From positions 930,001 through 994,000 of the forward strand of contig NZ_PXYJ01000001.1 of NCBI RefSeq assembly GCF_003012815.1: DNA of 64,000 bases, given 5' to 3'. This stretch comes from Allosphingosinicella vermicomposti (GTDB lineage: Bacteria > Pseudomonadota > Alphaproteobacteria > Sphingomonadales > Sphingomonadaceae). Positions 61,724 through 64,000 of the stretch are shown piece after piece (the stretch's first letter is position 1; every line of letters starts with the position of its first letter). The position numbers and the translations under genes are program-made. Below the pieces are notes generated by a model. That model had not been told where the DNA came from, did not search any database, and saw only the letters and a program-made list of their open reading frames with translations.

Positions 61724-63028
61724 TTACTCGGCGTAATTGGCCTGGAATCGCGCCCAGTTTGCACCGGAGAGGCGCACGCTGAGGGTAACGCCAAGATCCT
61801 TATGCGCTTGATCGAGCACCTCGCCATTGGCGTGGAGCCAGGCGATCGCTTCCCCGGCAGAGACCGGCAAGGTGATGTCGTGGACCGATGCCCCCTGCCG
61901 CAGCCGCTCCGCCGCGAGCCTCAAGAGATCGTCCAAACCTTCGCCGGTAAGCGCTGAAATCGTAACGACATTTTCGCGCCGCCGCGCTTCTTCGCGGATG
62001 CGTGACGCTTCTTGCTCATCCAGGCTGTCGATCTTGTTCCAAGCTTCGAGGATCGGAGCCCCCTCCTCTCCTCGCGCGCCAATCTCCTCCAGCACATCCT
62101 CAACATCCTGACGTTGCGCATCGCTGTCGGGGTGCGAAATATCGCGGACATGGATGATGAGGTCGGCCGAAATGACTTCCTCCAAGGTTGCGCGGAAGGC
62201 CGCGACCAACTGGGTCGGCAGGTCGGAAATGAAGCCAACGGTGTCGGACAGGATCGCTTTATCGATACCCGGCAGGCCGATTTCCCGCATCGTGGGATCG
62301 AGTGTCGCGAAAAGCAGATTTTCCGCCATCACATCGGCGCGGGTCAGGCGATTGAAAAGGGTCGATTTTCCAGCGTTCGTATAGCCGACGAGCGCGATGA
62401 TCGGCCACGGTGCCCGCTGGCGGCGCGCGCGGTGGAGGGTGCGGGTACGCGTCACCTGCTCCAGCTCCTTGCGGAGCTTCGCCATGCGGTCGCGAATCTG
62501 GCGGCGGTCGGCCTCGATCTGGGTTTCACCAGGGCCGCCGAGAAAGCCGAAGCCGCCGCGCTGGCGTTCAAGGTGGGTCCAGGACCGGACGAGCCGCCCT
62601 GCCTGATAATCGAGGTGGGCAAGCTCCACCTGCAACCGCCCTTCGGCCGTTGCCGCCCGCTCCCCGAAGATTTCAAGGATCAGGCCAGTGCGATCGATGA
62701 TCTTGGCATTGATCGCCTTCTCCAAATTCTTCTGCTGGATCGGCGTCACCGCGCCGTCGACGATGACAAGCTCAGCCTCATGCAGGCGAGCGGCCTCGGC
62801 GATCGCCTCGACCTGCCCCGAACCGAATAGGGTGGCGGGCTTTGCAGCGCGGATTCGGAATGGGAGCTTGTCGACGACGTCGATGCCAATCGCTTCAGCG
62901 AGACCTGTCGCTTCTTCGAGGCGAGCCTGCGTATCGCGCCGCCCCTCCCCGCCCATTTCAGGCAAGGCCACAATAGCACGCGCGCCGCGCGCGACATCGG
63001 CGTTATCGTCGCGATTGAAAACGCTCAG
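61724..63028 (-). CDS. hflX: Ribosome-splitting GTPase HflX
   Basis: A 434-residue HflX if begun at CTG 63028, or 415 residues from GTG 62971. The N domain has RTGLILEIFGERA, EGRLQVELA and RGGFGFLGGPGETQIEADRR; the G domain has GYTNAGKSTLFNRL, DPTMREIGLPG, DTVGFISDLP and the N-K-I-D motif. HflX splits stalled ribosomes under stress. The upstream frame reads SVFNRDDNADVARGARAIVA, which aligns with the E. coli start (MFDRYDAGEQAVLVH), and AGGAG lies seven bases before the CTG. No ATG, GTG or TTG exists between that point and GTG 62971. Hence the CTG is preferred. Confidence 0.9.
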   Translation of the reverse strand: MSVFNRDDNADVARGARAIVALPEMGGEGRRDTQARLEEATGLAEAIGIDVVDKLPFRIRAAKPATLFGSGQVEAIAEAARLHEAELVIVDGAVTPIQQKNLEKAINAKIIDRTGLILEIFGERAATAEGRLQVELAHLDYQAGRLVRSWTHLERQRGGFGFLGGPGETQIEADRRQIRDRMAKLRKELEQVTRTRTLHRARRQRAPWPIIALVGYTNAGKSTLFNRLTRADVMAENLLFATLDPTMREIGLPGIDKAILSDTVGFISDLPTQLVAAFRATLEEVISADLIIHVRDISHPDSDAQRQDVEDVLEEIGARGEEGAPILEAWNKIDSLDEQEASRIREEARRRENVVTISALTGEGLDDLLRLAAERLRQGASVHDITLPVSAGEAIAWLHANGEVLDQAHKDLGVTLSVRLSGANWARFQANYAE

Positions 63029-63032
63029 CGGC

Positions 63033-63521
63033 TTACTCCTGAGTCTCGGCCTGCATCAGGCTGACGGGGTTTTCCGGCTGCACCGTCGAGATAGCGTGCT
63101 TGTAAACAAGCTGGGCCATGCCCTCGCGCTGAAGGAGCAAGCAAAAGAGGTCGAAGGCCGCGACCTGCCCTTGCAGCATAACGCCGTTCACCAGGAACAT
63201 CGTTACCGGCTCATCGGCGGCCCGGATGGCCCCGAGGAACACTTCCTGAAGCTGCGTTGCCCGCTTGGCATTGGCCTGCTCGGCAAAAATGCGGGTAATC
63301 TCGTCAAGGTCGACCGGCTGCGCTGGCATGATCGTGGAGATGGCATGCTTATAGACAAGCTGGGCCTGACCATCCCGGCGCAGCAGCACCGAAAAATTGT
63401 CGAACCAGGTGATAATCCCCTGAAGTTTCACGCCCTTCACCAGGAACATCGTCACCGGCGTCTTGGACTTACGGAGGCTGTTCAGGAACATATCCTGTAA
63501 ATTGTTGGTCTTATCAGCCAT
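63033..63521 (-). CDS. hfq: RNA chaperone Hfq, fused tandem double-Sm form
   Basis: A 162-residue protein holding two complete Hfq/Sm domains: residues 7-70 and 89-153, joined by a linker of 18 residues. Each has the Sm2 tail YKHAIST. Copy 1 keeps LQDMFLN, KGVKLQG and WFDNF, close to E. coli Hfq. Copy 2 (LQEVFLG, NGVMLQG, AFDLF) loses the D9, N13, K31 and basic rim residues. Three chains could form a six-domain ring. ATG 63521 follows AAGGAG; the upstream frame (to 63569) is not family-like. It lies four bases before the proposed hflX start. Confidence 0.93.
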
Positions 63522-63640
63522 TGTTATGTTCTCCTTATTGGCAGGCCGTCCCCGAAAAGCGGCCAGCATATGTGCGCTCCGGTAACATCCGTGCGCCCGC
63601 GTAAATTAGAGCATGGCGCGCCGCTTTCAAGCGCTGCCGC

Positions 63641-64000
63641 TTACTCTCCCTGCTCCGGCTTCCCGTCGGATATGCCCAGCGCCTTGAGCTTACGGTGGAG
63701 CGCCGATCGCTCCATGCCGATAAAAATGGCTGTGCGTGAGATATTACCGGAGAAACGCCGGATCTGGATACGGAGATATTCCCGTTCGAACGTCTCGCGC
63801 GCCTCGCGCAACGGCGTTCCCATGATCGCTTTCACCGCTTCATTGGGATTGAGTTGGGCTTGCTCACTAATGATTTCCGGCGGCAGCATATCAATCTCGA
63901 TGCGGCCAAGCCGCGCCCCTGGAGCCAGAATGATCGTCCGCTCAACAACGTTGCGAAGCTGGCGCACATTGCCTGGCCAATCGTAAGCTTGAAGCGCCGC
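63641..64000 (-). CDS. ntrX: NtrX-type sigma-54-dependent response regulator, C-terminal part
   Basis: Only the last 119 codons are in the window; the gene runs past 64000. The piece starts AALQAYDWPGNVRQLRNVVE, the conserved R-finger/sensor II end of the sigma-54 AAA+ domain, and ends with a Fis-type helix-turn-helix (ISRTAIFIGMERSALHRKLK). NtrX-hfq-hflX is a known alphaproteobacterial order. The receiver and most of the AAA+ domain cannot be checked. NtrC is the alternative, but the context and the IGMERSALHRKL wording favour NtrX. Confidence 0.85.
   Translation of the reverse strand, partial: AALQAYDWPGNVRQLRNVVERTIILAPGARLGRIEIDMLPPEIISEQAQLNPNEAVKAIMGTPLREARETFEREYLRIQIRRFSGNISRTAIFIGMERSALHRKLKALGISDGKPEQGE

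Follow-up and report, generated by a model that had tools for sequence, protein, structure and literature searches.

The distribution of Hfq reportedly received an early survey from Sun et al. in 2002, and the eukaryotic Sm/Lsm rings are hetero-heptamers that hold unlike Sm subunits, encoded by separate genes, at fixed positions. A described counterpart of the gene considered here is Zymomonas mobilis ZMO0347, which carries the same two Sm domains in the same order in one chain; the available text of its report (Yang 2010, PMC2877685) notes two Sm-like domains in six other Sphingomonadales species as well and already raises the question of whether three proteins suffice for a ring. According to the same text, Z. 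mobilis hfq contributes to stress tolerance and an hfq mutant shows stress phenotypes (PMC2877685), which implies that the double protein works in vivo. Both the architecture and the trimer proposal are thus known already (NF010691; PMC2877685), and the sequence-only reading was right to mention double Hfqs from some sphingomonads. What we add is a fixed split of residues between the halves, a single origin and a diverged genus, coded g91. The portion of the ZMO0347 paper at hand contains no comparison of RNA-face residues between the two domains (PMC2877685), and searches of an open-licence library listed no recognisable description of such a division. Hfq of E. coli resembles both copies in Q8, G29, Q33, F42, Y55, K56 and H57; it has no tandem, and D9, R16, Y25 and K31, mutated in a preprint available in part (PMC12262471), sit on all six of its subunits. 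A solved double Hfq was sought in the PDB, where each of 35 matching sequences aligned in one stretch only.

The window, a stretch of 64,000 nucleotides, holds the double hfq close to one end (Table 1). Its neighbours are ORFs that we take to be of the ntrX and hflX types, with a presumed mazG-type ORF on the other strand beyond them in the ORF list of the window. The hfq ATG at 63521 is preceded by AAGGAG; a second in-frame ATG lies upstream at 63569, and most alignment rows start at MA(D/E)K. That two full Sm domains lie in one chain, as first read from the sequence, is borne out by the ORF together with two stretches matching PF17209 (191.1 bits, cut-off 27), alongside a TIGR02383 score of 179.7 bits (cut-off 61.7). 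The two-domain model NF010691 matches at full length, with 286.8 bits over residues 1–161 (cut-off 270). A search of the organism's own genome gave this one Hfq match only.

Table 1. Features at the double hfq locus, in window coordinates.
Feature	Coordinates	Strand	Description and basis
hfq, double	63033..63521	-	162-residue protein with both Sm domains in a single chain; ORF, PF17209, NF010691
Copy 1, residues 1 to about 74	63300..63521	-	NF001602 stretch 3–74; residue table; model
Linker, about residues 75–88	63258..63299	-	continues predicted helix 73–85; model; linker charge
Copy 2, about residues 89–162, acidic C-terminal tail	63033..63257	-	residue table; model
hflX-type ORF, downstream of hfq	61724..62971	-	ORF; served as species marker (tree)
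C-terminal end of ntrX-type response regulator, upstream	63641..64000	-	open ORF

How do the two halves differ? In E. coli numbering, used throughout, copy 1 of the window's Hfq has an RKSK rim, K28/K31, W38 and N41, and copy 2 has an RAAD rim, N28/M31, A37-A38, L41 and Q63. Q8, F42, Y55, K56 and H57, the core of the proximal uridine pocket, are present in both, and G29 and Q33 belong to the distal face. The translation confirms YKHAIST and VTMFLV in both copies, and the sequence confirms Q8-D9, N13, K31 and RKSK in copy 1. The changes first listed for copy 2 hold for D9E, N13G, K31M and RAAD; Q8 itself is retained.

One hfq ORF was read at each of 253 loci (254 were fetched; L254 lacked an hfq ORF), yielding 204 two-domain and 49 one-domain proteins, the latter comprising 35 loci inside the family (15 coded genera) and 14 outside it. 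Because 80 of the 204 doubles were the best 80 of 578 matches in one search, the double set leans to close relatives, and some species may recur in both locus collections. The residue counts refer to the 185 doubles outside g91, which include repeated sequences and so are not independent rows (124 different sequences for copy 1, 136 for copy 2), or to all 204 where stated.

On the distal face, unfused Hfqs carry N28/K31 in 49/49 cases. In all 185 doubles outside g91, copy 1 has K28/K31 and copy 2 has N28/M31, a combination found in 195 of the 204 doubles when g91 is included. The gain of a lysine in copy 1 (N28K) near the loss of one in copy 2 (K31M) makes the distal face, judged by its residues, look re-partitioned rather than half dead. 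How much weight can the swap bear? In the accessible text of a molecular dynamics study, K31 and N28 meet RNA mainly through the backbone (PMC8121710), which counsels against over-reading it. For E. coli, the preprint, as far as available, describes K31A as mild in earlier reporter assays but as cutting RNA chimeras almost fourfold, and R16A as nearly abolishing them (PMC12262471); these losses indicate that such residues matter, while the backbone contacts and the mild K31A effect temper, as a caution, the weight of M31.

The proximal side is split too. In doubles outside g91, copy 1 has N at position 41 (185/185) and copy 2 has L (179/185); positions 37-38 are T-W in copy 1 (185/185 each), with A37 in 163 and A38 in 166 of the 185 copies 2; and position 63 is M in 182 copies 1 and Q in all 185 copies 2. 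Single Hfqs have the copy-1 residues at 38, 41 and 63 in 49/49 and at position 37 in 48/49. W38 replaces a serine of E. coli Hfq, being present in every single and every copy 1 outside g91 and replaced by alanine in those 166 copies 2. At the rim, position 19 is basic in 185/185 copies 1 against 25/185 copies 2, and the first rim arginine is kept in 185/185 against 38/185. Since R16 (185/185 in copy 1, 162/185 in copy 2) and a basic residue at 17 (185/185 and 136/185) remain common in copy 2 and R47 is kept in both copies (185/185 each), the rim of copy 2 is, by its residues, weakened, not gone. Q8, G29, Q33, F42, Y55, K56 and H57 are conserved at 99–100% in both copies outside g91.

The two halves differ on all three faces (distal, proximal and rim), as the sequence-only reading had it for this one gene, and the difference persists across the doubles of the family. 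Comparison with relatives sorts the changes it had listed: M31 is general in copy 2, and RAAD (2/15 loci of the own genus) and G13 (about 10% of genus-weighted rows, with E9 at 64%) are local. Copy 2 in general has M31, L41, A37-A38 and Q63 and lacks K19 as well as the first rim arginine. The proposed contrast of strong and weak halves captures a real inequality and is too simple, because copy 2 outside g91 keeps Q8, Q33, F42, Y55, K56 and H57, is under purifying selection, and faces a copy 1 that has itself gained N28K near its own K31M.

Rates of evolution bear on the best-surviving alternative, namely that copy 2 is a structural spacer whose RNA sites decayed under relaxed selection and whose fixed differences are old, functionless accidents. 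Estimated from 73 disjoint pairs outside g91, the dN/dS of copy 1 is 0.077 and that of copy 2 is 0.162, with dN higher in copy 2 in 55 pairs, higher in copy 1 in 9 and tied in the remainder; mean pairwise identity is 0.90 and 0.80, and mean identity to the singles 0.83 and 0.68, for copies 1 and 2, respectively. Copy 2 evolves twice as fast yet is constrained. The doubled rate, the concentration of most fixed changes in copy 2 and the wide variation of its rim are what a spacer would predict. However, a dN/dS still at 0.16 argues against simple decay, M31 and Q63 are invariant in 185/185 and Q8, Y55, K56 and H57 are retained, and N28K, the sole fixed distal change of copy 1, fits coordinated change better than decay. 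We rate the spacer as unlikely.

What assembly could accommodate two unequal halves? We consider it probable that the doubles have a single origin, form an (AB)3 ring of three chains with the RNA faces split between the copies, and serve as RNA chaperones. Three chains with alternating copies are the simplest assembly that keeps a six-domain ring, and the family-wide inequality of the halves fits such a three-fold arrangement, at the level of residues. The window's Hfq, the one match in its genome, is predicted to act as an RNA chaperone; three of its chains would close into one six-domain ring with copies 1 and 2 in alternation. Among the sampled doubles, the residues of the three RNA faces are apportioned almost uniformly: copy 1 retains a complete rim, the pocket of the proximal face and a pair of distal lysines, and copy 2 retains the uridine-pocket core, devoid of K31, N41 and K19 and usually of the first rim arginine.

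The C-terminal tails would add to this asymmetry. Family singles have a mean tail charge of −4.2 (one run-on ORF included) and outgroup singles of −3.8; in doubles outside g91 the linker averages −0.3 and the copy-2 tail −5.2, so that only the stretch following copy 2 has stayed acidic. In Caulobacter crescentus Hfq (PDB 6gwk), which has one domain per chain and hence six identical rims and tips, the acidic tip lies against R18 and K19 in the rim of the adjacent protomer, and K21 forms a bond with R49 within its own protomer, according to the accessible text (PMC6561178). By alignment, Caulobacter K21 corresponds to position 19 and R49 to the first rim arginine here; this touching pair of the Caulobacter protein, as described there, is the one of which both members are mostly lost in copy 2. 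In an alternating ring every copy 2 would be flanked by copies 1, and the three acidic tips would consequently fall on the three rims with their basic residues kept; the other three rims would have no tip of their own and would have a reduced basic patch. Such a ring would present three fully basic positions and three plainer ones, giving putatively three regulated annealing sites, and distal A-R-N contacts that may recur only at every second repeat. It would still have as many distal lysines as an ordinary ring, six, all of them gathered on copy 1. Eukaryotic Sm/Lsm rings likewise combine unlike subunits, but they have seven of them, from separate genes, and we suggest no shared origin of the asymmetry.

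An AlphaFold2 monomer model (29 rows; mean pLDDT 88.7, pTM 0.85) has two Sm domains and a linker helix, although two of the five models were weaker (pLDDT 78 and 77) and the linker block stands at about 71. With helices at 8–19 and 91–101 and strands within 22–66 and 105–149, each half is predicted to adopt the Sm fold of one helix and five strands. Copy 1 can be superposed on the Caulobacter protein and aligns to solved Hfqs; copy 2 is barely covered among the matches listed. A complete predicted fold in each half would also suit six chains forming two stacked or tethered rings, in which copies 1 bind RNA in the ordinary way and copies 2 have another role. A linker of 23–28 residues (from T61 of copy 1 to Q8 of copy 2, outside g91) is compatible with this, as is the closer identity of copy 1 to ordinary Hfq. 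One of the two rings would, however, hold twelve distal Lys28/31 and the other none, and we argue that alternation better accounts for both the reciprocal N28K/K31M exchange, which keeps six lysines per six domains, and the disappearance of the acidic tail after copy 1. Stacked or tethered rings appear improbable, somewhat more so than the spacer.

Sequencing or assembly error joining two genes has next to no chance of explaining the double, since unrelated assemblies show both domains in a single frame at 204 of 253 loci, the architecture has its own NCBIfam model and the Zymomonas double is described in the available part of its report (PMC2877685). Within the genus, 22 of 25 genomes have a full-length double, which equally speaks against the artefact that had been named as a possible refutation; three genomes gave partial or split matches (G012, G023, G024). 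In G012, a draft of about 300 contigs, the double hfq was matched in two pieces at about 9335–9752 of contig C266, perhaps reflecting an assembly error or a disrupted copy. In a sample of the family, 291 of 298 genomes had an Hfq match, of which 250 read as doubles and 41 as singles by E-value (42 low ones were searched again), a reading that by itself cannot separate a single from a diverged double in genomes without ORF reading. Elsewhere in the order, other families gave E-values of single size, and the 14 loci fetched were all single. The NF010691 cut-off, below which strongly diverged doubles would fall, was passed by 5/385 genomes of the class and 12/299 of the phylum, all from the same family. 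Among 6 matching phage records and the 15 plasmid records listed of 85 with a match, the sole one-piece full-length match was a Sphingomonas record.

Where did the double come from? We propose one duplication-fusion of an ordinary alphaproteobacterial hfq, which would have taken place in the ancestor of most of the family. In an HflX tree of 98 rows, chosen by coded genus and built by a quick method (without the single genus g22 and some double genera), the 62 double rows form one clade (SH-aLRT 96), 22 family single rows lie below the doubles and 14 outgroup rows at the base. The single/double label changes once, with no sampled reversion, which fits one fusion without reversion among the sampled relatives. 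In domain trees of 59 columns each copy groups together, and neither a grouping of copy 2 with copy 1 nor one with outgroup singles is rejected. Position 24 is V in outgroup singles and M in 96–99% of family singles and of both copies outside g91 (it varies in g91), a residue pattern that weakly favours an origin of copy 2 inside the family.

On the HflX tree, genus g91 diverges first among the doubles. Going by E-values it seemed a mixed single/double genus with reversion, an idea we dropped because the ORFs at all 19 fetched loci proved double; in 9 of the 19, both halves have diverged strongly. All 19 copies 1 combine K28 with K or R at 31, and 12 of the 19 copies 2 have N28/M31. The split is blurred at 37, 38, 41 and 63; compared with the other doubles, mean charge is more negative in the linker (−1.3) and less negative in the tail (−2.5). 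dN/dS for copies 1 and 2 is 0.11 and 0.16 in 4 disjoint pairs, and 0.28 and 0.42 in 23 overlapping pairs. The diverged proteins (L177–L185) score 40–57 bits in copy 2 against 78–100 in the other ten; they come from genomes of 2.1–2.6 Mb and constitute a natural case of fast Hfq evolution.

The hfq leader carries a feature of its own, a hairpin ahead of the ribosome site (63541–63567, minus strand) that ends in GC-CAA. The motif [CT][CGT]GCCAA occurs at most 45 nt from the start: outside g91, 135 of the 162 double leaders read have it (shuffling predicts 4.2), as do 15 of 35 family singles (0.7 expected), and none of the 19 g91 and 14 outgroup leaders does. A perfect stem of at least five pairs accompanies GCCAA in 128/143 double leaders (shuffled 16%) and 15/19 family single leaders (shuffled 35%), with stems varying on both sides (GCGGG/CCCGC, GCAGG/CCTGC, GCATG/CATGC, GCAAAC/GTTTGC); the window's own stem has one mismatch, and folding energies overall are only slightly lower than in other groups. 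Rfam gave nothing above threshold across window positions 62900–64000 (one match, E 0.99). In Z. mobilis, the hfq 5′UTR influences hfq expression, as stated in the accessible text (PMC5770649). Leader A-R-N repeats, considered as an autoregulation site, were set aside; their run lengths did not clearly separate the groups.

Hfq has mostly been studied as a ring of identical subunits, in which the roles of single faces are hard to isolate. Double Hfqs have their subunits tied in pairs and unequal, and among their relatives are both the unfused state, in 15 coded genera, and g91. The fullest version of our reading—a natural asymmetric (AB)3 Sm ring, shaped by residue exchange after one fusion, with three-fold, directional sRNA annealing and A-R-N reading—we put forward tentatively, as something nearly as likely to hold as to fail. 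If true, the sphingomonad ring would be an (AB)3 assembly unlike homohexameric Hfq, with its distal lysines on copy 1 and with the basic rim residues of one half kept to match the acidic tips of the other. With this family one can test what number of rim, distal and tip sites a ring requires, and likewise the passage from a homomeric to a heteromeric ring, a step that the eukaryotic Sm/Lsm rings must once have taken.
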